A stretch of 64,000 nt of DNA, taken from the NCBI RefSeq assembly GCF_000263635.1, contig NZ_ADEV01000009.1, positions 1 to 64,000 on the forward strand, written 5' to 3'. How positions within the stretch are numbered: the first letter of the stretch is position 1; every line of letters starts with the position of its first letter. The notes under the pieces were generated by a model. That model did no database searches. It was not told the origin of the DNA and was given only the letters and a program-made list of their open reading frames with translations. The translations under genes and the position numbers were made by a program. This DNA comes from Gardnerella greenwoodii 00703Dmash. GTDB lineage: Bacteria > Actinomycetota > Actinomycetes > Actinomycetales > Bifidobacteriaceae. Below, piece after piece: positions 4,740 to 36,189 of this stretch.

Positions 4740-4813
4740 GCCCCTGTATCCCAATTGGTAGAGGAAACAGCCTCAAAATCTGTGCAGTGTGAGTTCGAGT
4801 CTCACCGGGGGCA
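4740..4813 (+). tRNA. tRNA-Leu (anticodon CAA), short variable loop
   Basis: A 74-nt cloverleaf. The acceptor stem is GCCCCTG/CGGGGGC with discriminator A. The D loop contains TTGGTAGA. The anticodon loop is CTCAAAA, giving CAA. The variable loop is GCAGT, and the T arm is GTGAG-TTCGAGT-CTCAC. CCA is not encoded. The short variable loop is odd, because bacterial leucine tRNAs normally carry a long variable arm; tRNA-Leu(GAG) at 41164 in this window does. The call rests on the anticodon. Confidence 0.85.
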
Positions 4814-4820
4814 CGTGCAC

Positions 4821-4856
4821 AACGTCACTTAGCTTGCTGAGTGACGTTTTTTATTT
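4821..4856 (+). terminator. Intrinsic terminator of tRNA-Leu(CAA)
   Basis: Perfect 9-bp stem AACGTCACT/AGTGACGTT with loop TAGCTTGCTG, running into a T-rich tail. Confidence 0.85.
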
Positions 4857-4866
4857 CGTTTTAATA

Positions 4867-4894
4867 TTTAGACATAAGTAATAAAGCGTATAAT
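4867..4894 (+). promoter_or_regulatory. Promoter of the alpha-amylase gene
   Basis: TTTAGA, 16-nt spacer, perfect TATAAT. It lies 63 nt before the chosen ATG at 4958. Confidence 0.55.
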
Positions 4895-4957
4895 AATAAA
4901 AGCATTTTCGCACAATAAAACAATGAATGTGCTGTACGTGATGTGAAAGGAACAAAG

Positions 4958-6625
4958 ATGATCCGCAGTGCAAAATTGCAACTAGGCAAGCGTAAAAAAA
5001 GTAATTATTCTGGCGAATTAATCAATAATTGCAAGCGCAATTTAATGTTTGTATTTGCGTCATTCGCTGCTGTAGCAACAATATTAATGTGTGTGTTTAC
5101 CATTGTTCCAAACTCTTCGGCATTTGCTTCAACTAAATCAACAAACGGCCTTCCACAAAAAGGCGTTATTGTTACCGCTTTTCAGCAAAACTGGAGGAGT
5201 ATTGCCAAGGAGTGCAAAGAAACGTACGGTCCTGAAGGTGTTAAGTACGTTCAAGTGTCTCCTCCGGAGGATCATATTAAAGGCAAAGCGTGGTGGACTT
5301 CTTACCAGCCTGTTAGTTACAATCTAAATTCTAAGCTTGGTACTGAAGCTGAGTTTAAGAATATGATTACTACGTGTAAAGCTGCGAAGGTTGGAATTAT
5401 TGTTGACGCTGTTATTAACCACATGACTGGTGCTGACAATAAAGATACTGTGGGAGTTGGCGGCAGTAAGTATGATGCGGCGAATCAGAGTTATCCAGAT
5501 GCTGGTTACACGAAAGATGATTTTCACCAAATAGATAAAGATATTTACACATATAAGGATGCGCAAGTAGTTTGGAATTATCGTTTAGTTGGTTTGCTTG
5601 ATTTGGATACTTCTAAGCCTCATGTGCAGCAAACTCTTGGTAATTATTTTGCAAAATTGCTAAAAATGGGTGTATCTGGCTTCCGTGTGGACGCTGTAAA
5701 GCATATTGCTCCAAACGAGATGAAAGCTATTAAGAAGGCTGCATCTGAGGCTAGTGGTGTTAAGCCTGAAAACATTTGGTGGATGCAGGAAACAATTGGG
5801 GATAGCAATGGTGCGAAAGAAAATCAGCCAGATAAGTATGTTGGAACTGGTGAAGTAGACGAGTTTGAGTACTCGTACCGTTTGCGAAATTATTTCTCTG
5901 GTTCAATCGACAATTTGAAGCATATTACAGATGGTCTTATTCCTAATAAGAGTGCTGCTATTTTTGTTACAAATTGGGATACTGAGCGAGATAATGCCAC
6001 AAGCGTTCTTACTTACAAAGATGGCAAATTATATGAGCTTGCGAACGCTTTTATGCTTAGCTATCCGTATGGTACGCCAAATATTTATTCCGGATACAAG
6101 TTTAGTGAGCGTGACGAAGGTGCGCCTTTTGCAACTGAAACGTCTGTTCCAGATGCAAGCTGTGGCAAGGATTCAAAGTGGCAGTGCACTCAACGCTGGA
6201 CTTCAATTCGAGGCATGATTGGTTTCTATAATGCTGTTAAAGGCACGAAAGTAACTAAGTGGCAGGATGATGAAAGCAATAATATTGCTTTTAGCCGCGG
6301 AAATAAGGGTTTCTTCGCTATTAATAATGACGATAAGCAAAATAATGTTAGTTACAATACTGATTTGCCAGATGGCGAGTATTGCAATGTTTATGCATCA
6401 AAGAATTGCGAAAAAACTGTAACTGTTAGTGGAGGAAAGGTTGAAACAACTATTCCTTCTCATTCTGCTGTAGCTTTGCATATTAAGGCTGTGAAGCACT
6501 TTGGTAGCAATTCTGCAATTAATAAAATACTTCTGGTATTTGTTGCTATTTTTGTAGCTTTGGTTGTTACTTTGGTTTTGCGATTTAAAAAAGACAAAGC
6601 TGATGTTGAAAGTGCAGCTAAGTAG
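4958..6625 (+). CDS. Membrane-anchored extracellular alpha-amylase (GH13_32-like)
   Basis: Endo-hydrolysis of alpha-1,4 links in starch or glycogen outside the cell. A GTG at 4943 is in frame, but AAAGGA is well placed for the ATG at 4958, giving 555 residues. A basic N-terminus and a signal helix (about 29-50) lead into one GH13 domain (about 65-510). A C-terminal membrane helix (about 520-545) with a Lys-rich tail anchors it. Catalytic residues visible are D245 (GFRVDAVKH), E278 (WWMQETIG) and D341. Region I is DAVINHM. Region IV reads FVTNWDTER, with Trp where GH13 enzymes normally have His before the Asp. The gene is a paralogue of the N-terminal half of the next gene. No carbohydrate-binding module and no LPXTG are present. 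Confidence 0.9.
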   Translation: MIRSAKLQLGKRKKSNYSGELINNCKRNLMFVFASFAAVATILMCVFTIVPNSSAFASTKSTNGLPQKGVIVTAFQQNWRSIAKECKETYGPEGVKYVQVSPPEDHIKGKAWWTSYQPVSYNLNSKLGTEAEFKNMITTCKAAKVGIIVDAVINHMTGADNKDTVGVGGSKYDAANQSYPDAGYTKDDFHQIDKDIYTYKDAQVVWNYRLVGLLDLDTSKPHVQQTLGNYFAKLLKMGVSGFRVDAVKHIAPNEMKAIKKAASEASGVKPENIWWMQETIGDSNGAKENQPDKYVGTGEVDEFEYSYRLRNYFSGSIDNLKHITDGLIPNKSAAIFVTNWDTERDNATSVLTYKDGKLYELANAFMLSYPYGTPNIYSGYKFSERDEGAPFATETSVPDASCGKDSKWQCTQRWTSIRGMIGFYNAVKGTKVTKWQDDESNNIAFSRGNKGFFAINNDDKQNNVSYNTDLPDGEYCNVYASKNCEKTVTVSGGKVETTIPSHSAVALHIKAVKHFGSNSAINKILLVFVAIFVALVVTLVLRFKKDKADVESAAK

Positions 6626-12675: not shown

Positions 12676-14421
12676 ATGTTTTGCATCAACTGTGGAGCTT
12701 TAATTAAGGATAATACACGGTTCTGTTCTCGTTGTGGAGCAGCTGTTAATGCTTCTGCAGAAAATGATCAGCAGAACAATACGCAGAATCAGCAGAGTTC
12801 TCAGAATCAGCAGAGTTCTCAGAATCAGCAAAGTATGCGTAACAACATGCCTCAAGCTTACAAAGCTGAGCCGTATAATGCTAATGCTGCAGCATCAGCC
12901 ACTTATACGGCATCAGCTATTCCTTCGTCTTCTCGCGGTGGCGGCCTATTTTCTGGATTTGATGTTTTTTCAAATGAGGAATTAAAGGATAAAAGAAATA
13001 TAGTTCTTTCTATTACAATAGTTATATCTTTTATTCTTTCTTGTATTTTTGGCTGCTTAATTTGGGATTTTATTCATCCGGGTCAAATTCCTTATTCAAA
13101 GCTTCGCAGTGAGCTTACTCAATCGCACAAGTATGAAGATTATACGCTAAAAATTGTTAATTCCGACGTTTCTCAATATCCGCACGTTAAATTGTACTTT
13201 TCTCTTACGGATAGCAGTGGAAAAGCGCTTGAAATTGACTCTCCAACTGCTGCAATTCGCGAAAAAATTGGTGGCGGCAAAGAAGTAGAACGCCTTATTC
13301 ATAAGGTTGAGCGAATTAAAGACAATCAAGGTGTTAATTACGAGATTCTTCTTGATAAATCTGGCTCAATGGATTCTTCAATCGACACTATGAAGAAAAC
13401 AATGAGTGATTTTGTGCGCAATCTCAACTATAAGGTTGGAGATAAAGGAGAGCTTATATCTTTCGATAGCTACCTCATGTATATGGCAACATACACAAAC
13501 GATAAAAATCGACTTCTTACAGGTATCGATAATATGACACCTTACGGAATGACTGCCTTGTATGATGCTCTATACACTGGTGTTACTAATGCTTCAAACC
13601 ATCCAGGCTTTAACTGTGTTATTGCTTTTACAGACGGTTTGGATAATGAAAGCACTCATACTGCGGATGAGGTTATTGCGCTCGCAAAAGAAAAGGGAAT
13701 ACCAGTTTATTTGATTGGTACAACTGATGCTGATTCTAGCGTATTGCAAAATATTGCAAACGAAACAAACGGCTACTTCTGGGATATTAATTCTATTTCA
13801 GATATGAAAGATGTAATGAATAGAATTAGAGTTAATCAAGATAATGTTTATTGCCTTGAATACGATTCTGATTCCTCAACAAATCCTTATGTTGATCGTG
13901 TAGTTTCTGCTTTGCTTGCAGATTCGAAGAATCATAAGTCTGGTGGAATTGGTGACGATTTAGCGTTTAAGCCAGTGAAGAGGAAGACTTATAAGAAGAG
14001 TGGTTCTCGTTTTGTTCTTCATAAGGGAGATGTAACTTGGACCGAAGCTAATAGTGCATGCATGCAAGATGGCGGATACTTAGTAACTCTTACAGACAAG
14101 AGTAAGGAAACTAAGGTTATAAATATGGCTAAGAAGGAAGGTGTCAAGTATGTGTGGATTGGCGGTTACACCTCTCAGCGCGAAAATGGTGACGTGTATG
14201 CACACTGGGTTACTGGTGAAAAAGTAAAGTATCAAAATTGGTTGCCGGGTGAGCCAAGTCGAAATGATAAAGATGGTGAACCTGAGTTTTATCTTATGCT
14301 TTGGAGATTAAATGACGAATGGTCTTGGAACGATCAGCGCGACAACCTATTTACAAATCCTACACTGCGCAAAACATTTAGCGGTAAGACAGGCTACGTG
14401 TGCGAAGTGAATAAATACTAA
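12676..14421 (+). CDS. Zinc-ribbon / TM / von Willebrand A / C-type lectin protein
   Basis: A 581-residue predicted membrane protein of unknown function. An N-terminal zinc ribbon has two CxxC knuckles (C3/C6 and C17/C20). A Gln/Asn/Ser-rich linker with tandem SSQNQQ repeats follows, then a membrane helix (about 107-131). The C-terminal part would lie outside the membrane. It has a vWA domain (about 215-400) with the metal-site motif DKSGS near 226, a downstream Thr in GMTALYD and FTDGLDNE. A C-type lectin-like domain (about 450-581) carries WIGG, NWLPGEPS and WND. A cytoplasmic zinc ribbon tied to an external ligand-binding tip suggests sensing or adhesion, but this is inference. The start follows GAAAGAAGAACGT. 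Its neighbours are the amylopullulanase and a GH3 enzyme. Confidence 0.8.
   Translation: MFCINCGALIKDNTRFCSRCGAAVNASAENDQQNNTQNQQSSQNQQSSQNQQSMRNNMPQAYKAEPYNANAAASATYTASAIPSSSRGGGLFSGFDVFSNEELKDKRNIVLSITIVISFILSCIFGCLIWDFIHPGQIPYSKLRSELTQSHKYEDYTLKIVNSDVSQYPHVKLYFSLTDSSGKALEIDSPTAAIREKIGGGKEVERLIHKVERIKDNQGVNYEILLDKSGSMDSSIDTMKKTMSDFVRNLNYKVGDKGELISFDSYLMYMATYTNDKNRLLTGIDNMTPYGMTALYDALYTGVTNASNHPGFNCVIAFTDGLDNESTHTADEVIALAKEKGIPVYLIGTTDADSSVLQNIANETNGYFWDINSISDMKDVMNRIRVNQDNVYCLEYDSDSSTNPYVDRVVSALLADSKNHKSGGIGDDLAFKPVKRKTYKKSGSRFVLHKGDVTWTEANSACMQDGGYLVTLTDKSKETKVINMAKKEGVKYVWIGGYTSQRENGDVYAHWVTGEKVKYQNWLPGEPSRNDKDGEPEFYLMLWRLNDEWSWNDQRDNLFTNPTLRKTFSGKTGYVCEVNKY
12781..12832 (+). repeat. In-frame 18-bp tandem repeat
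   Basis: The unit CAGAATCAGCAGAGTTCT occurs about three times in a row and encodes NQQSSQ repeats in the cytoplasmic linker of the zinc-ribbon/vWA protein. Confidence 0.6.
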
Positions 14422-15871: not shown

Positions 15872-15955
15872 CAAACGAATTACTGATAATTACCGATAAT
15901 TACTAAGAATAACTAAGAATTCTAATAATATTTTCCGTTTGTGCGCGTGTTGTGT

Positions 15956-15984
15956 TTGCATTTGTACTTTCATGGTGTTAGCAT
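15956..15984 (+). promoter_or_regulatory. Promoter of the Trp-leader/ECF transporter operon
   Basis: -35 TTGCAT, 17-nt spacer, -10 TAGCAT, about 85 nt before the leader-peptide ATG. Just upstream (15885-15930) the DNA carries short direct repeats of GATAATTAC type that I cannot interpret. Confidence 0.55.
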
Positions 15985-16070
15985 CATTTCAACACAAACG
16001 AATATCGAATATTTCGGTTGAGGTTTGTGCGTTAACCACAGCTAGTTAATGAGTTTAGGAGGCAGTCATC

Positions 16071-16175
16071 ATGCGTAACATGAACATGAATGCTGAATCT
16101 ATGAATACTCTTAACGCTGCTCGTATGTGGTGGTGGCAGTCTTCTCTTTGGCGTGAGTTTACTCTGAAGTTTTAG
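16071..16175 (+). CDS. Tryptophan-rich attenuation leader peptide
   Basis: A 34-residue peptide with an AGGAGG ribosome site. It contains three adjacent Trp codons at 16128-16136 within ARMWWWQ, and a fourth Trp at 16149. It ends 25 nt before a strong terminator hairpin. This is the plan of a trp-type transcription attenuator: a ribosome stalled at the Trp run when charged tRNA-Trp is scarce prevents terminator formation. A segment just after the Trp codons (16139-16145, GTCTTCT) is complementary to 16197-16203, which overlaps the left arm of the terminator and could form the antiterminator. Another small hairpin, AAGCT/AGCTT, lies at 16176-16194. The downstream gene is a transporter rather than a biosynthetic operon. 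Confidence 0.88.
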   Translation: MRNMNMNAESMNTLNAARMWWWQSSLWREFTLKF

Positions 16176-16200
16176 AAGCTGCATATAAAAGCTTGTAGAA

Positions 16201-16230
16201 GACCTCCGGGGTAAGCCCGGGGGTCTTTTT
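16201..16230 (+). terminator. Attenuator terminator
   Basis: 10-bp stem GACCTCCGGG/CCCGGGGGTC with one G-T wobble, loop GTAAG and five T. It lies between the Trp leader peptide and the ECF S-component gene. Confidence 0.9.
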
Positions 16231-16338
16231 GTATACAAGCTTAAATTTAAAAAATAACCAAGTCACAAATCACAAACCACAACAAAATATTCGATAGCTT
16301 TATATGAATAATATAAAGCCCAAATAAGGAGAGAAATC

Positions 16339-16965
16339 ATGGCTCAAGAAATTAACGAAACCGTTAAGGAAGCTTATAACAATGGTGCAAACGCAACTAC
16401 AGATGCTGCAGCTGTAATGATGCAAAATGTAAAAGTTAAGAATCACGCATTAGATATTACTTCGTTAGTTTTAGTTGCAGTACTTTTTGCAGCAGGATGT
16501 ATTCTTGACTTTACTGTTGCAAAATCTCTTTCTATTGGAAATATTCAGCCTGAGTTTGTTATTGCTTCGTTCTGCTTGTCAATTTTGCTCGTTAGGCCGA
16601 AGATTTACCAGGGAGCTATTATTGGTGCTCTTGCAGCAACATTAATTCAATTTAATACTTCAATTCCATTCCTTGAGTATGCTTGCGATATTCCAGCTGC
16701 AATCATTATGACTGCAATATTAATTGGTTATATTCGCGTGTTCCCAAAGGATGCAGCTCGTAAAGTAAGCGTATTCCCATTCATCTCTACTTTTATTACG
16801 ACTGTAATTTCTGGTTGCATTTTTGCTCTTATTGCTGCTTTCTTCATTCTTCACTCTCCAAATATGGTAATGGTGATGCTTCCAATTATTTTGGGTACAG
16901 CAGTATTTAATGCGATTGTTGTTGAAGTACTTTACACTCCGTTGAAGATTGTATTGCATAAGTAA
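16339..16965 (+). CDS. ECF transporter S component, predicted tryptophan-specific
   Basis: A substrate-binding membrane subunit for an energy-coupling-factor importer. The 208 residues include a polar N-terminus of about 40 residues and then about five to six hydrophobic helices, the size and layout of S components. The start follows AAGGAG. Specificity is inferred from context: the gene lies directly behind a leader peptide with a WWW run and a terminator, so it should be expressed when tryptophan is scarce. A dedicated double ATPase and EcfT follow. The protein contains no tryptophan. Bacterial TrpP-type transporters are the likely functional counterpart, but I cannot confirm homology by eye. 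Confidence 0.75.
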   Translation: MAQEINETVKEAYNNGANATTDAAAVMMQNVKVKNHALDITSLVLVAVLFAAGCILDFTVAKSLSIGNIQPEFVIASFCLSILLVRPKIYQGAIIGALAATLIQFNTSIPFLEYACDIPAAIIMTAILIGYIRVFPKDAARKVSVFPFISTFITTVISGCIFALIAAFFILHSPNMVMVMLPIILGTAVFNAIVVEVLYTPLKIVLHK

Positions 16966-17063
16966 ATCAATTTTTATACAAATTATTTTGCATAAAATGT
17001 GTTTTTATTGCACTTAGTATGCATGAATGATTGCAGTGTATAGAAAAATAAAGGTATAAAAGT

Positions 17064-17100
17064 AAGTTGATGCCAGTCGTATTGCGATTGGCATCAACTT
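17064..17100. other. 16-bp stem-loop between S component and ATPase genes
   Basis: Arms 17064-17079 and 17085-17100 pair along 16 bp with one wobble; the loop is TATTG. There is no T-run on the plus strand. It may terminate weakly, protect the upstream mRNA end or set subunit ratios. It is the only notable element in the 178-nt gap. Confidence 0.55.
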
Positions 17101-17143
17101 GCATGTTGGTAAATAGTTTGAGTTTGATTGGTGTGTTACAGTT

Positions 17144-19084
17144 ATGGATGGTACGCATCAGCAAAACGAACTTATTGCTGGCAGAAAATTAGTTGAACAA
17201 GCCCAACAACGAAACATAAAGAGCCTTATGAAAAAACCTAATGATTCCCACTTAGAAGAGCCGCTACTTGAATTGAAGAATGTGTCTTTTCAATACGGTA
17301 CAAATCGTAGTGAAAATACTTCAAGCGTTGAAGATAATACGTATGCGCTTAATCGAGTAAATCTTAAAATTTACCCTGGTGAATTTGTTGGAATTATTGG
17401 ACCTTCTGGCTCTGGTAAAACAACTCTTGCTTCGCTTTTTTCTGGTGCTATTCCTCACCATTATTCGGGAAACTTTTGTGGAACTGTAAGTATTGCTGGT
17501 CATGACACTACAACTCTTGAACTAACTAATATTGCTTGCTTAATAGGTTCAGTTATTCAAGATATTGATGCTCAAATGGTTGCTGCGAACGTGGAAGATG
17601 AGCTGCTTTTTGGATTGGAAAATTTTGGTGTTCCTCACGATGAAATCCCTAATCGTATAGTTAGCTCTTTAGAAACTGTTGGCATTAGCGATTTGCGCAA
17701 TCGAGATCTAGATACACTGTCTGGCGGTCAGAAGCAGAAAGTTGCTATTGCTGCAATTTTGGCGCTGAAACCTAAAGTTTTAGTGCTGGATGAACCAACA
17801 TGTGCGTTGGATCCTGTATCTTCCCGCATGATTTTTTCTATTCTTCAAAATCTTAATAAAAAATTTGGTATTACTATTGTTGTTATCGAGCAAAAAGTTG
17901 CTTTATTAAGCGAATATTGTAAACGTCTTATAGTGCTTTCTAAAGGTGAGCTCGTTCTTGATGCTCCTGTTTCTTTAGCTCTTAAAGACATTGATTTACT
18001 TCGTAAAGTTGGTATTAACTATCCTCGTACTACTCACTTAATTAAGCAGTTGCAAGATGAGCAAATTTGTAATCCTTCTGAACTTACTGTTGGCGTGGAA
18101 GAAACTGTAAATACTATTGTTAAAACATTACGTACGGATTATTCTAAACTTTCTAATTCAAATAACTCGAATAATGCAGAATCTTCTTTAGAGTCCAGTA
18201 AAGAAACTTTTATAAAAGCTAATAATTTAGATAATTCTAACAAGCCATGCCTTTCAATAAATAATGTGAGTTTTGCTTATGCGAATGGCGTTAAAGCTCT
18301 AAAAGATGTTTCATTTAATGCAAATAGCGGTGAATTAATTGCTTTAATTGGAAGAAACGGTGCTGGAAAAACAACAATTACAAAGATTATTAATGGCTTA
18401 TTAAGACCTACAGAAGGTAGTGTGGAAATAGATGGTATCGATACTAAGTCGCTTCGCATTAGTCAAATAGCAAAATATGTATCTACCTTATTCCAAAATC
18501 CTGATCGTCAACTTTGTAAAAGAACTGTTCTTGAAGAAGTAGCTTTTAGCTGTGAATTAATCGGTGAAGATCCTAGCCAAGCTCAAGAGCATGCAATGCA
18601 GATTATTGAAAAGCTTAATCTTAACCCGAAAGATATTCCATTTATGCTTTCTAGAGGTCAGCGTCAAATGGTTGCTTTGGCTGCAACTGTTGTAACGCGT
18701 CCTAAAATTCTTGTTCTTGATGAGCCTACATGCGGACTTGACTACAATGAGTGCATGAAAATTATGCAAGTAGTTAAAGATTTGAGAGATCACGGTTGCT
18801 GCGTGATTATGGTTTGTCACGATATGGAAGTTGTTCTTGATTATGCAACACGATTGATAGTTATTAATGACGGAAAGCTTATTATTGACGGATTGGCAAA
18901 AGATGTGTTTGAAAAACCAGAAGTTTGCGATGCTGCTGCATTGTATCCGCCATTATTGTGTTCTGTTTCTCAAGGCTTAGTTGCGAATGGTTTTGAAAAT
19001 TGTAGGGGATTGTACATTAGATCTCTATTAGTGCAAGCGTTGAGTGGTAAAAATAGTACGCAAAATGAGCAGAAACAAAGGTAA
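17144..19084 (+). CDS. ECF transporter double ATPase (EcfA-EcfA' fusion)
   Basis: Hydrolyses ATP to drive the ECF importer from the cytoplasmic face. Two ABC domains are fused. The first (about 40-280) has Walker A GPSGSGKTT near 86, signature LSGGQ near 192 and Walker B VLVLDEPT. The second (about 360-600) has GRNGAGKTT near 403, a variant signature LSRGQ near 502 and ILVLDEPTCG. They are joined by a Ser/Asn-rich linker (about 325-355). The 646 residues contain no tryptophan. No good ribosome site precedes the ATG at 17144, and an ATG at 17228 is a possible alternative. EcfT begins 12 nt after the stop, so the two genes are certainly coupled. Confidence 0.88.
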   Translation: MDGTHQQNELIAGRKLVEQAQQRNIKSLMKKPNDSHLEEPLLELKNVSFQYGTNRSENTSSVEDNTYALNRVNLKIYPGEFVGIIGPSGSGKTTLASLFSGAIPHHYSGNFCGTVSIAGHDTTTLELTNIACLIGSVIQDIDAQMVAANVEDELLFGLENFGVPHDEIPNRIVSSLETVGISDLRNRDLDTLSGGQKQKVAIAAILALKPKVLVLDEPTCALDPVSSRMIFSILQNLNKKFGITIVVIEQKVALLSEYCKRLIVLSKGELVLDAPVSLALKDIDLLRKVGINYPRTTHLIKQLQDEQICNPSELTVGVEETVNTIVKTLRTDYSKLSNSNNSNNAESSLESSKETFIKANNLDNSNKPCLSINNVSFAYANGVKALKDVSFNANSGELIALIGRNGAGKTTITKIINGLLRPTEGSVEIDGIDTKSLRISQIAKYVSTLFQNPDRQLCKRTVLEEVAFSCELIGEDPSQAQEHAMQIIEKLNLNPKDIPFMLSRGQRQMVALAATVVTRPKILVLDEPTCGLDYNECMKIMQVVKDLRDHGCCVIMVCHDMEVVLDYATRLIVINDGKLIIDGLAKDVFEKPEVCDAAALYPPLLCSVSQGLVANGFENCRGLYIRSLLVQALSGKNSTQNEQKQR

Positions 19085-19096
19085 AGGTAGGTTGGC

Positions 19097-19870
19097 ATGC
19101 AAACAAAACTTTTAACTTATCAACATGGCAATACCATATTTCATAAAGCTAATCCTATTGCAAAGCTTATTCTTGCTGCCAGTGTTGTAATAAGCGTTTT
19201 TATTGCAAAACAGTACACTGTGCTTATTGCTCTTGCTGTACTTATTCTTATTGCAATGGCTTGTGCTCATGTTGTAAAAGCTTTATTAAACCTTATTAAA
19301 GCAATGATAATAATTGCTTGTGTTATGTTTGTTATGCAAACAGTTATTGCTCAAAAAGGTCATTATATTTTCCTGTGGTTTACTCAAAACGGTATGGATA
19401 TTGGTGCAAAAGCAGCTTTGCGACTCTTCTGTTTTGCTCTTCCGCTAGTAAGCGTGCTAATGGTTACTAAATTAAACGATCTTGCAAACGCAGTAGTTCA
19501 ATATTTGCATGTGCCATACTGCTACGCTTTTACTATTACTACTGCAGTCCGTTTTGTGCCTATTTTTTCTTACGAAATGACACAAATTACAGAAGCGCAA
19601 ATGGCGCGTGGTGTTGAGTACGATACTAAAAATCCTTTTAAGAAATTACAGTTGATGATGCCACTTATTGTGCCACTTTTAGTAACTTCAGTTCGTAAGG
19701 CGGACAGTTGTGCGCTCGCTGCTGAAGAACGTGGTTTTTATTTACGCACCCGCAAATCTTCTTACTATAGTTATCCTTTTGGGTGGAGAGGATTTGTTTT
19801 TATATTTATTTCCGCACTTATTATTGCTTTGCCAATAGTTACTTCAATCTTTTTGCCTAATCTTGTATGA
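19097..19870 (+). CDS. ecfT: ECF transporter transmembrane component EcfT
   Basis: A 257-residue membrane scaffold that links the ATPases to the S component. It has several hydrophobic helices (about 20-130 and 225-250) and the two Ala-Arg-Gly-type coupling motifs of the family: MARGVEYD near 170 and AAEERGF near 210. The sequence between them, KADSCALAAEERG, is typical. It has only two Trp. The start follows AAAGGTAGG, 12 nt after the ATPase gene. With the S component and ATPase it forms a complete dedicated ECF transporter. Confidence 0.88.
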   Translation: MQTKLLTYQHGNTIFHKANPIAKLILAASVVISVFIAKQYTVLIALAVLILIAMACAHVVKALLNLIKAMIIIACVMFVMQTVIAQKGHYIFLWFTQNGMDIGAKAALRLFCFALPLVSVLMVTKLNDLANAVVQYLHVPYCYAFTITTAVRFVPIFSYEMTQITEAQMARGVEYDTKNPFKKLQLMMPLIVPLLVTSVRKADSCALAAEERGFYLRTRKSSYYSYPFGWRGFVFIFISALIIALPIVTSIFLPNLV

Positions 19871-19909: not shown

Positions 19910-20998
19910 ATGAAAAGTGTAAAAGTTTGGATTAAAGGTGCAAGAATTTACACTCTGCCAATAGGCTTAGTTCCTGTTGTTATGGCATTCGCGATTTCTC
20001 TTAGAATGATGCGTTTTTCGCATTTTGAGAAACCAATTATTAGTTTTGTGCAATGTTTTATACAATTTTTTCTATGCTGTGCGGTTGCAGTATTTATGCA
20101 GATTGCTGTTAATTATGCGAATGATTATTGTGACGGCTTGAATGGCTTAGACGAGAATCGTAAGTTTCGCCCTGTGAGTAAAAGTAAAAATTCTAAGCCG
20201 TTATGCGATGTATCGTGGCGTCTTGCGGATGCTGGTATTAAGTCAGAATCTGTGCTTAAAGCGGTAATAGTTTCTGCTTTGATTTCTTGCATTGCGGGCT
20301 TGCTTATTGTTTTTAGCACGGGAATATTGTGGTTTATTCCACTTGGAATTGCCTGCATTGCTGCAGCGTGGTTTTATGCAGGAGGAAAGCATCCTTATGG
20401 TTATAAAGGTTTTGGAGAATTAAGCGCTTTTGTGTTTTTTGGCCCTGTTCCTTTTATTGGATCTTTATGTGCAATAACGCATGGCATAGGTGTTCAAGCC
20501 AACAATATTTTTATTAATAGTCCATTAATGATTTTGGCTTGTGTTTTAATGTCATTTATTCCTGGAGCTTATTCTGCATGCTTAATGATGGTGAACAATC
20601 TTCGAGATATTGCAAGTGATAAAGAGCATGGAAAAATAACTGTGATGATAAGGCTTGGAGAGCAAAGCGGTAGACGTTTATGTGCTGCAGCGAGTATTGT
20701 TGCGGCTCTTTTGTTGTTAGCGTATTCGGTTTCAATTATTGTTTTTCCTTTTGAAGTTCCTTCAATATGGAGCTTTTATAGTTCTGAAGTTTTCTTCAGT
20801 TTTAGTGAGTTTATACGCAATATTTCATTGCACCTATTTTTTGCTATTTTTCAGTGGTTTATATTGGTAGCTCTTGTAATAAAAGCGTATAAATTTGCCA
20901 AATGTATACTTAAAGGTGACTATAAGAATTCTTTTGCGCTTTGCGTTGCTCAAGCCATTTTTGCATCTGCAGTAGTACTGTTGTCTGCGATTATATAA
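19910..20998 (+). CDS. UbiA-family prenyltransferase, MenA-like
   Basis: A polyprenyl transferase of the UbiA superfamily. MenA members attach the isoprenoid tail to 1,4-dihydroxy-2-naphthoate in menaquinone synthesis. The 362-residue membrane protein has about eight to nine hydrophobic helices. Two Asp-rich Mg-diphosphate motifs are visible: NDYCDGLNGLDENR near 69 and NNLRDIASDKEHGK near 229. RLGEQSGRR after the second motif is also MenA-like. It starts 40 nt after ecfT and may be transcribed with it, although no functional link is obvious. No other menaquinone gene occurs in the window. The substrate could be scavenged naphthoate or something else. Confidence 0.72.
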   Translation: MKSVKVWIKGARIYTLPIGLVPVVMAFAISLRMMRFSHFEKPIISFVQCFIQFFLCCAVAVFMQIAVNYANDYCDGLNGLDENRKFRPVSKSKNSKPLCDVSWRLADAGIKSESVLKAVIVSALISCIAGLLIVFSTGILWFIPLGIACIAAAWFYAGGKHPYGYKGFGELSAFVFFGPVPFIGSLCAITHGIGVQANNIFINSPLMILACVLMSFIPGAYSACLMMVNNLRDIASDKEHGKITVMIRLGEQSGRRLCAAASIVAALLLLAYSVSIIVFPFEVPSIWSFYSSEVFFSFSEFIRNISLHLFFAIFQWFILVALVIKAYKFAKCILKGDYKNSFALCVAQAIFASAVVLLSAII

Positions 20999-33711: not shown

Positions 33712-36189
33712 CTACTCGTTATCGCCAGCGGTTGCAGCGGTAGCGGTGACAGCGCCTGGCTTGTCGGTCTTAACGCCTGGCCATACCCAATCGGTGTAAT
33801 CTGGGTGATCAAGACCCTTGTCGACTGCATACTGGAAGGCTTCGAGGCGGAAGTCCTCGAGCTTCTTGATTTCGTCGGCATACTTGGCGGCGTCAACCAT
33901 ACGCAAAGCTTCAGCGGTAAGCTCGTAACGATCCATGTCGTTCACGCGAACCATGTCGTATGGCGTGGTGGTGGAGCCCTGCTCCTTGTAGCCATGGACG
34001 TTGAAGTTGTCGTGGTTTGGACGATCGTAAATCAAGCCGCGAACGTCATGTGCATAGGAGTGATAAGCGAAGAGAACTGGCTTGTCAGCGGTGAAGAGAT
34101 CGGTGAACTCTTCGTCAGTCAAAGCTTCGTTGTTTTCCTTAGCGGACTGCAACTTGAGCAAGTCAACAACGTTAACAACCTTGAACTTAACGCCAAGCTT
34201 GTTCAACTTGTCGGCAGCGGCCATCAATTCCTGCTGTGGAACATCGCCAACACCAGCGAGAACAACCTGAACTTCGTCGTTGTTCTTAGCGTTGGAAGCC
34301 CACTTCCACTCTGCAGCGCCCTTTTCGAGCTCTTCGCGAGCTTCGTCGAGGGTCAACCAAGTGGCGGCTGGCTGCTTACCAGCGAAGATGGCGTTAATCA
34401 TGTTGGTGGACTTGTAAGCCTTTTCAGCAACAGCGAGCAACATGTTGGAATCTACTGGGAAGTAGATGCCGATTACATGATCGTTGTTGAAGGTCTTGTT
34501 CAAGAGCACGGAGGTTACGCCTGGATCCTGGTGCGAGAAGCCGTTGTGATCCTGACGCCATACGTGAGAGGATACCAACAAGTTCACGGAGGAGATTGGC
34601 TTACGCCATGGAATCTCGCGAACGGTAGCCTCAAGCCACTTTGCGTGCTGGTTCAACATGGAGTCGATAACGTGTACGAAGGACTCGTAAGAGCTCCAGA
34701 TGCCGTGACGACCGGTGAGCAAGTAACCCTCGAGGAAGCCTTCCATCTGGTGCTCGGAAAGCTGCTCGGTGACCTGGCCGGTAACAGCCATGTGCTCATC
34801 GACTAAGCCAGAAAGGTAGCCAGCATCCCACTGCTTGTTGGTTACTTCGTAAGCAGCCTGCAAACGGTTGGAAGCGGTCTCATCTGGGCCGAAGATACGG
34901 AAGGAATCTGGGTTGTTCTTGATGATGTCACGAGTGTAAACACCAAGGCGACGGGTAGCTTCGAGCTGACCCCAGCCGTGACCGAATTCCTTAACTTCCT
35001 TGACTTCGTAATCATCGAGCTTTGGAAGCTTCAAATCTTCACGAATACGACCACCGTTGGCGTTTGGATTTTCGCCAATACGGAGTTCGCCCTTTGGCAT
35101 GAAGGAAAGAACGTCTTCCTTCACAGCGCCCTTTTCATCGAAGAGCTCTTCAGGCTTGTAGGACTTCATCCAGTTCTTCAAAACCTCGAAGTGAGCTTCG
35201 GTATCGCGAGCGGAAGCCAGTGGAACCTGGTGTGCACGCCAAGAGCCTTCGGTCTTCTTGCCGTCGATGAACTTCGGGCAAGTCCAACCCTTTGGAGTGC
35301 GGAAGATGATCATTGGGTAGTAAGGGCGAGTTACGTCGTTAGTCTGAGCCTCAGCCTTAATATCGCAAATCTCGTCGAAGATGGTTTCGAACATATCGGC
35401 GAAGCGACGGTGGATGGACATGTGATCCTCATCGTCGAAGCCAGCAACGAACTCGTATGGCTCGTAGCCCATGCCGTGGAAGAACTCATGAAGCTCTTCG
35501 TCGGAAATGCGGGAAAGAATAGTTGGGTTAGCAATCTTATAACCGTTCAAGTGCAAGATTGGAAGCACGATACCGTCGGTACGTGGGTTCACAAGCTTGT
35601 TGGACTGCCAACCGGTGGCCAAAGGACCAGTTTCAGCTTCGCCATCGCCGACGATTGCTGGAACGAACAAGCTTGGGTTGTTCATAACAGCGCCGTAAGC
35701 GTGGGAGAGTGCATAACCAAGCTCGCCACCTTCGTGGATGGAGCCTGGGGTTTCAGGAGCGAAGTGAGAAGGAATACCGCCTGGGTAAGAGAACTGGCGG
35801 AAGAACTTCTGCAAACCAGCTTCGTCCTTTGTAATCTTTGGATAGTACTCAGTGTAAGTACCGTCGAGGTAGGACTGAGCAGTACCAGCTGGGCCGCCGT
35901 GGCCTGGACCCATGATAATCACGGTATTCTGCTGGTGGTCAGCAATGAAACGGTTGATGTGGCCAATAAGGAAGTTAAGACCTGGAGTGGTGCCCCAGTG
36001 GCCCACCAGACGATGCTTAACATCTTCGCGAGTGAACGGCTCCTTCATTAGAGGGTTGCTACGAAGATAAATTTGGCCGATTGCAAGATAGTTGGCAACA
36101 CGCCAGTACTTGTCTACGCCTTCGATAGCTGCCTCGGAAACTGGAGCGTTGAGCTTCTTCCAAGGTGTGCCAATAACAGGACTCGTCAT
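33712..36189 (-). CDS. xfp: Xylulose-5-phosphate/fructose-6-phosphate phosphoketolase
   Basis: Key thiamine-diphosphate enzyme of the bifid shunt. It splits fructose-6-phosphate or xylulose-5-phosphate with phosphate into acetyl phosphate and erythrose-4-phosphate or glyceraldehyde-3-phosphate. I start at the ATG at 36189 (825 residues), preceded by AGGAG; the family begins [16 protein letters not shown]. Phosphoketolase signatures include [14 protein letters not shown], the ThDP/Mg site [51 protein letters not shown] and [20 protein letters not shown]. The protein looks nearly identical to Bifidobacterium Xfp. Codon use is strongly biased and more GC-rich than in the neighbours, fitting very high expression. 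It has its own terminator. Confidence 0.97.

Follow-up and report, generated by a model that had tools for sequence, protein, structure and literature searches.

What does a short reading frame rich in tryptophan codons do ahead of a set of transport genes, and what do these genes carry? The locus that raises the question is flanked by a GH3 gene and a UbiA-family gene in the window, by which is meant the whole stretch of 64,000 nucleotides of Gardnerella greenwoodii 00703Dmash that was analysed; the initial annotation had described it as a trp attenuator in front of genes for an ECF S component, a fused double ATPase and EcfT. The switch found in the leader, the match of the S component to the tryptophan transporter family TrpP and the recurrence of the arrangement in a second class together point to ribosome-mediated transcription attenuation that couples a tryptophan ECF importer to the level of charged tRNA-Trp, a reading to which we assign a probability of about 0.88. 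Both a substrate and a control logic would thereby be assigned to an importer needed by a tryptophan-auxotrophic vaginal bacterium. The features are listed in Table 1.

Table 1. Features of the leader and of the importer genes (positions in the window).
Feature	Position	Strand	Remarks
Candidate promoter	15956..15984	+	TTGCAT, 17 nt, TAGCAT, TG before the -10; read by eye
Shine-Dalgarno AGGAGG of leader peptide	16057..16062	+	From sequence; GGAGG kept in leader alignment
Leader peptide ORF	16071..16175	+	34 codons, of which 20, 21, 22 and 27 encode Trp
Regulatory Trp codons TGG TGG TGG (WWW)	16128..16136	+	Predicted stall site
Protector hairpin (1:2)	16136..16182	+	16136-16145/16174-16182 plus inner helix 16146-16154/16161-16169
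Antiterminator 5' strand (region 2)	16157..16166	+	GTTTACTCTG; last leader codons
Intrinsic terminator	16197..16230	+	Stem 16197-16210/16216-16229; T-run 16226-16230
Antiterminator 3' strand (region 3)	16207..16216	+	CGGGGTAAGC; part of terminator 5' arm and loop
TrpP-like ECF S component	16339..16965	+	208 aa; AXXXA motif A47-A51; PF17099 match
Fused double ECF ATPase	17144..19084	+	646 aa; TIGR04520 415.8 bits, TIGR04521 408 bits, each above its cut-off
EcfT (CbiQ family) transmembrane component	19097..19870	+	257 aa; PF02361 83.8 bits, cut-off 25

The leader and its competing structures

Inspection of the sequence and of its translation, MRNMNMNAESMNTLNAARMWWWQSSLWREFTLKF, showed the leader with three adjacent Trp codons and the AGGAGG as first described, the latter lying eight bases 5' of the ATG; a fourth Trp codon occupies 16149-16151 and the stop codon 16173-16175. 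The WWW codons did not vary in any Gardnerella leader. From MWWW to the stop codon the 11 Gardnerella leaders compared were 96% identical, with 97% identity at third codon positions versus 54% at those of the S gene. The stretch 15955-15985, which may hold the promoter of the leader, was 93% identical over the same number of leaders; the candidate promoter was not reported by a consensus promoter scan. A covariance model of the leader, R1, matched in 12 of the 112 genomes of the GTDB genus, exactly those in which a TrpP-type gene occurs. In each, a single match was strong (E 1e-19 or better), and it always lay before the S gene; the other eight matches were weak (E 4e-4 or worse), six of them falling on the reverse strand at the same site.

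Short ATG reading frames containing WWW numbered two in the 64 kb, versus a mean of 0.1 in shuffled sequences. The other one, at 33960-34004, runs antisense to a phosphoketolase gene and was rejected as a second leader, being attributed to chance. The leader itself could by the same token be a chance frame next to an unrelated terminator, but this is contradicted by its conservation, its co-occurrence with the TrpP-type gene and its recurrence in another class, and we give the idea practically no weight.

Folding of 16040-16240 yielded -69.9 kcal/mol (z -3.8), and none of 200 shuffles was equally good. The GC-rich terminator that had been placed 3' of the leader was present by folding and by comparison, its extent being 16197-16230 and not 16201-16230; it was not listed by a simple terminator scan. 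Three pairs of its stem have changes on both sides in the Gardnerella leader alignment. A leader frame with consecutive Trp codons and a terminator before the first structural gene, two hallmarks of a trp attenuator, are accordingly both found at the locus. Folding and alignment also indicated that the protector hairpin sequesters region 2 by default; the hairpin is nearly invariant, so that little covariation can be assessed in it.

The initial annotation had suggested looking for competing antiterminator and terminator forms. Folding was therefore restricted to the leader segment expected to stay accessible once the ribosome has stalled. Region 2 then paired with region 3, and the same antiterminator was predicted in all 12 leaders folded, at -16 to -22 kcal/mol. 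The pairing outdid between 946 and 997 of 1000 shuffles, and at least 980 for all but one of the 11 distinct leaders. In the alignment of the two regions 96% of the cells were paired, versus 20-59% when the partner was slid by one to three columns. A pairing of 16139-16145 with the terminator foot, first read by eye as the antiterminator, was discarded, since it falls within the stretch that a stalled ribosome would occupy; folding gave 16157-16166.

Comparison with the piotii lineage revealed that region 2 ends there in A, not G, that region 3 has T, not C, and that the terminator has changed from CCGGGG/CCCGG to CTAGGG/CCTAG or CCTGG with the pairs kept. Region 2, region 3 and the 3' arm of the terminator thus covary three ways, though in what is essentially one lineage split. 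The same lineage has a 1-nt deletion just before region 2, which turns the peptide from WREFTLKF into WRSLL and places the stop codon at the end of region 2. Region 2 is unchanged despite this frameshift except for the one covarying base, which argues that it is under selection as RNA and not as peptide. A conserved antiterminator predicted to exclude the terminator hence joins the leader frame and the terminator, and the layout of a trp attenuator that had been proposed agrees with every sequence feature examined.

We propose that, with enough tryptophan, the ribosome would pass WWW, proceed to the stop codon and cover region 2, so that the terminator would form. When tryptophan is scarce, the ribosome would stall on 16128-16136 and cover the 5' arm of the protector hairpin; region 2, freed in this way, would pair with 16207-16216, the terminator would be blocked and transcription would continue into the importer genes. 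Coverage of the protector 5' arm by a ribosome at WWW, and of region 2 by one at the stop codon, would be expected from known ribosome footprints.

A leader rich in tryptophan before a tryptophan-related operon might also recall TnaC, that is, free tryptophan would be sensed by stalling of the nascent peptide and would induce the operon. Three adjacent Trp codons, however, suit the sensing of tRNA, and the leader is followed by an intrinsic terminator. One lineage preserves the RNA although its peptide is out of frame beyond WR, and the leader peptides of the two classes have little in common beyond WWW; we regard a TnaC-like leader as very improbable.

Attenuation by the translating ribosome would liken the Gardnerella leader to the trp attenuators of Corynebacterium and Streptomyces (Seliverstov et al. 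2005, PMC1262725) and to E. coli trpL, which share with it a leader with two or three consecutive UGG codons, a competing antiterminator and a GC-rich terminator with a U-run. The Gardnerella leader differs from them in that it would control an importer and not biosynthesis, in genomes that lack the pathway, and no obvious relation of leader or RNA sequence was seen, as judged without alignment. The tryptophan T-box leaders of Firmicutes likewise read the charging of tRNA-Trp and control tryptophan genes by a terminator switch, whereas the sensor in the Gardnerella leader would be the translating ribosome. No match to the Rfam T-box was obtained in the window or in the scanned TrpP loci; two microRNA-family Rfam matches on one TrpP locus were taken as spurious.

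The S component and its likely substrate

The S component had been regarded as unassignable apart from its leader. On the contrary, the protein matched the tryptophan transporter family TrpP (PF17099) over its full length, residues 42-204 aligning with positions 4-166 of the 169 in the profile (24.0 bits, E 3.7e-5). This score is under the Pfam gathering score of 27.2, and eight copies in other Gardnerella are above it, at 27.6 to 33.4 bits. Identity to the window protein ranges from 73 to 97% among the relatives in the set, the nearest named ones being those of G. swidsinskii (97%), NR047 (96%) and G. vaginalis 1500E (94%). Residues A47 and A51 were invariant in 13 S sequences, and AXXXA in helix 1 is a motif of S components (PMC11109136). 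No PDB entry was matched by the S alignment in a sequence search, and the AlphaFold2 model, built on a shallow alignment, had a mean pLDDT of 44. Several Gardnerella carry a second S component, 74% identical, in tandem between the S and ATPase genes (4771-5349 in both L008 and L013, 4781-5359 in L016), while the window strain has one S gene; tandem S genes occur in the other class as well.

The match to TrpP gives tryptophan specificity a second basis, independent of the leader. TrpP (YhaG) is the only characterised tryptophan importer of Bacillus subtilis, is repressed through TRAP and has been tied to tryptophan and 5-fluorotryptophan (PMC13170310); trpP was deleted there among the S-protein genes tested, in a study that names tryptophan among ECF substrates (PMC11487621). 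PF17099, a role in tryptophan uptake (predicted in Gardnerella) and a place among the S proteins (PMC11487621) are the points of likeness. TRAP control of B. subtilis trpP acts at translation (PMC13170310), whereas the Gardnerella S gene would stand behind a ribosome attenuator, and it adjoins its own fused ATPase and EcfT.

Analysis of the pathway genes indicated that all 12 genomes with the leader system lack indole-glycerol-phosphate synthase (trpC) and trpA, both of which are present in two Bifidobacterium controls; no WWW leader was seen before the Bifidobacterium trp operons in two loci. TrpB is also absent from eight of the 12, the window's genome included. The four others keep trpB, which stands alone in both loci read (L057 9386-10579 and L058 9714-10907). 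Since the window genome has none of trpA, trpB and trpC, the strain must by gene content import tryptophan. In the vaginal niche tryptophan is removed by the host (IFN-gamma/Trp axis).

We asked whether the attenuator may be real and the S component nevertheless carry another compound, such as indole or a tryptophan-containing peptide, whose shortage lowers charged tRNA-Trp. TrpB without TrpA has already been noted in a reference strain, and indole salvage has been discussed for Gardnerella, in passages of PMC4042155; the trpB retained by four genomes could use indole, and the score of the S protein below the Pfam cut-off would likewise fit another cargo. Against this, indole would be unusable in the eight genomes without TrpB, that of the window among them, small molecules are the usual ligands of S components, and TrpP itself is tied to tryptophan and 5-fluorotryptophan (PMC13170310). 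Another cargo is therefore considered improbable; tryptophan, the substrate originally indicated, is favoured by the recurrence of the leader together with the family match.

TrpP loci in a second class

TrpP was confined to Gardnerella among the 189 genomes of the family and among 396 sampled from the order. It appeared again in 102 of the 298 genomes of a second class in this phylum, whose family make-up makes Coriobacteriia probable, and 80 of these loci were read (36 from family f56, 32 from f35 and 12 from f42). The search for the leader before homologous S components thus extended beyond the genus: a WWW frame lay upstream of the TrpP-type S gene in 68 of the 80 loci (36/36 in f56, 30/32 in f35 and 2/12 in f42), with opposite-strand counts of 8/36, 1/32 and 0/12. 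Each of these leaders had a Shine-Dalgarno-like site, and all but one were followed, about 50-67 nt after the stop codon, by a terminator-like hairpin with a T-run. In a pattern search the S gene was followed by a fused double ATPase at 36/36 f56, 31/32 f35 and 1/12 f42 loci. Ten of the 12 TrpP homologues of f42, mostly with an unfused ATPase, had no WWW leader; at L173-L176, L178-L180 and L182-L184 (the class of G752) an unfused ATPase was observed with neither a WWW leader nor an Rfam element. With the same arrangement recurring in dozens of gut-type bacteria distant from Gardnerella, tryptophan is the likely cargo, and dozens of species of this second class of Actinomycetota are predicted to have a tryptophan importer regulon.

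Both f35 loci without a leader belong to genomes that have indole-glycerol-phosphate synthase, and some leader-bearing genomes have the synthase too. In this class the synthase was absent from 90 of 102 genomes with TrpP versus 119 of 196 others (p 5e-7, a value that ignores kinship). Folding predicted an antiterminator in these leaders also; in the duplex test 17 of 30 f35 leaders reached p<=0.05 and only one of 23 f56 leaders beat the shuffles at that level, so we stop short of claiming the antiterminator as established in this class. The phylogenetic tree placed the Gardnerella sequences in one clade beside f35 and apart from most of f42, with long branches and modest support. Horizontal transfer is likely from this placement.

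No description of a tryptophan attenuator on an ECF tryptophan importer was found in a literature search that did not cover the 2015 survey of tryptophan attenuators in Actinobacteria (Korolev et al.), cited in a passage of PMC4833913. As far as the search went, the pairing of such control with an ECF importer in a tryptophan auxotroph is new, as is its recurrence in a second class.

Extent of control and the surroundings of the leader

Profile matches identified the genes 3' of the leader as S component, fused double ATPase and EcfT, in agreement with the initial annotation, and two ECF ATPases together with EcfT are what characterises an ECF transporter. The S and ATPase genes are separated by 178 nt that include a 16-bp hairpin at 17064-17100, and from this gap it could be argued that the attenuator governs the S gene only, the ATPase and EcfT having their own promoter and serving other S components too. 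The hairpin, however, is without a T-run, S gene and fused ATPase remain near each other in both classes, the gap between them often being shorter, and the genome encodes two more EcfT domains; we consider control of the S gene alone unlikely, though less so than a different cargo, and retain attenuation of the importer genes as a unit. The hairpin also occurs in L010 and, with altered sequence, in L011. The two further CbiQ/EcfT domains lie at C9:234822-235475 (L054) and C7:122485-123066 (L056), in long frames of 786 and 947 codons, where they may be joined to further ECF parts.

Complementarity links 16003-16029, in the untranslated 5' part, with 16271-16296, which lie beyond the terminator, and the read-through mRNA can thereby close a helix of about 25 bp around the whole leader. 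The fold of 15984-16345 had z -7.95, and none of 300 shuffles was as good in vaginalis-type leaders. The arms are conserved in vaginalis-type Gardnerella and weaker or absent in the piotii type, L011 has a matched double change in them, and the 16003-16029 strand can alternatively pair locally with 15993-15999. Tentatively, and with more doubt than belief, we suggest that the Gardnerella and probable Coriobacteriia leaders form a coherent class of Trp-codon attenuators, each tied to a fused-double-ATPase ECF tryptophan importer and sharing architecture but little RNA sequence, to which Gardnerella would have added the long-range helix as a second layer, perhaps setting the translation or stability of the S gene.

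Directly after the EcfT gene lies a gene for a UbiA/MenA-like prenyltransferase (19910-20998), and a protein with a zinc ribbon, a VWA domain and a C-type lectin domain is encoded at 12676-14421 of the window.
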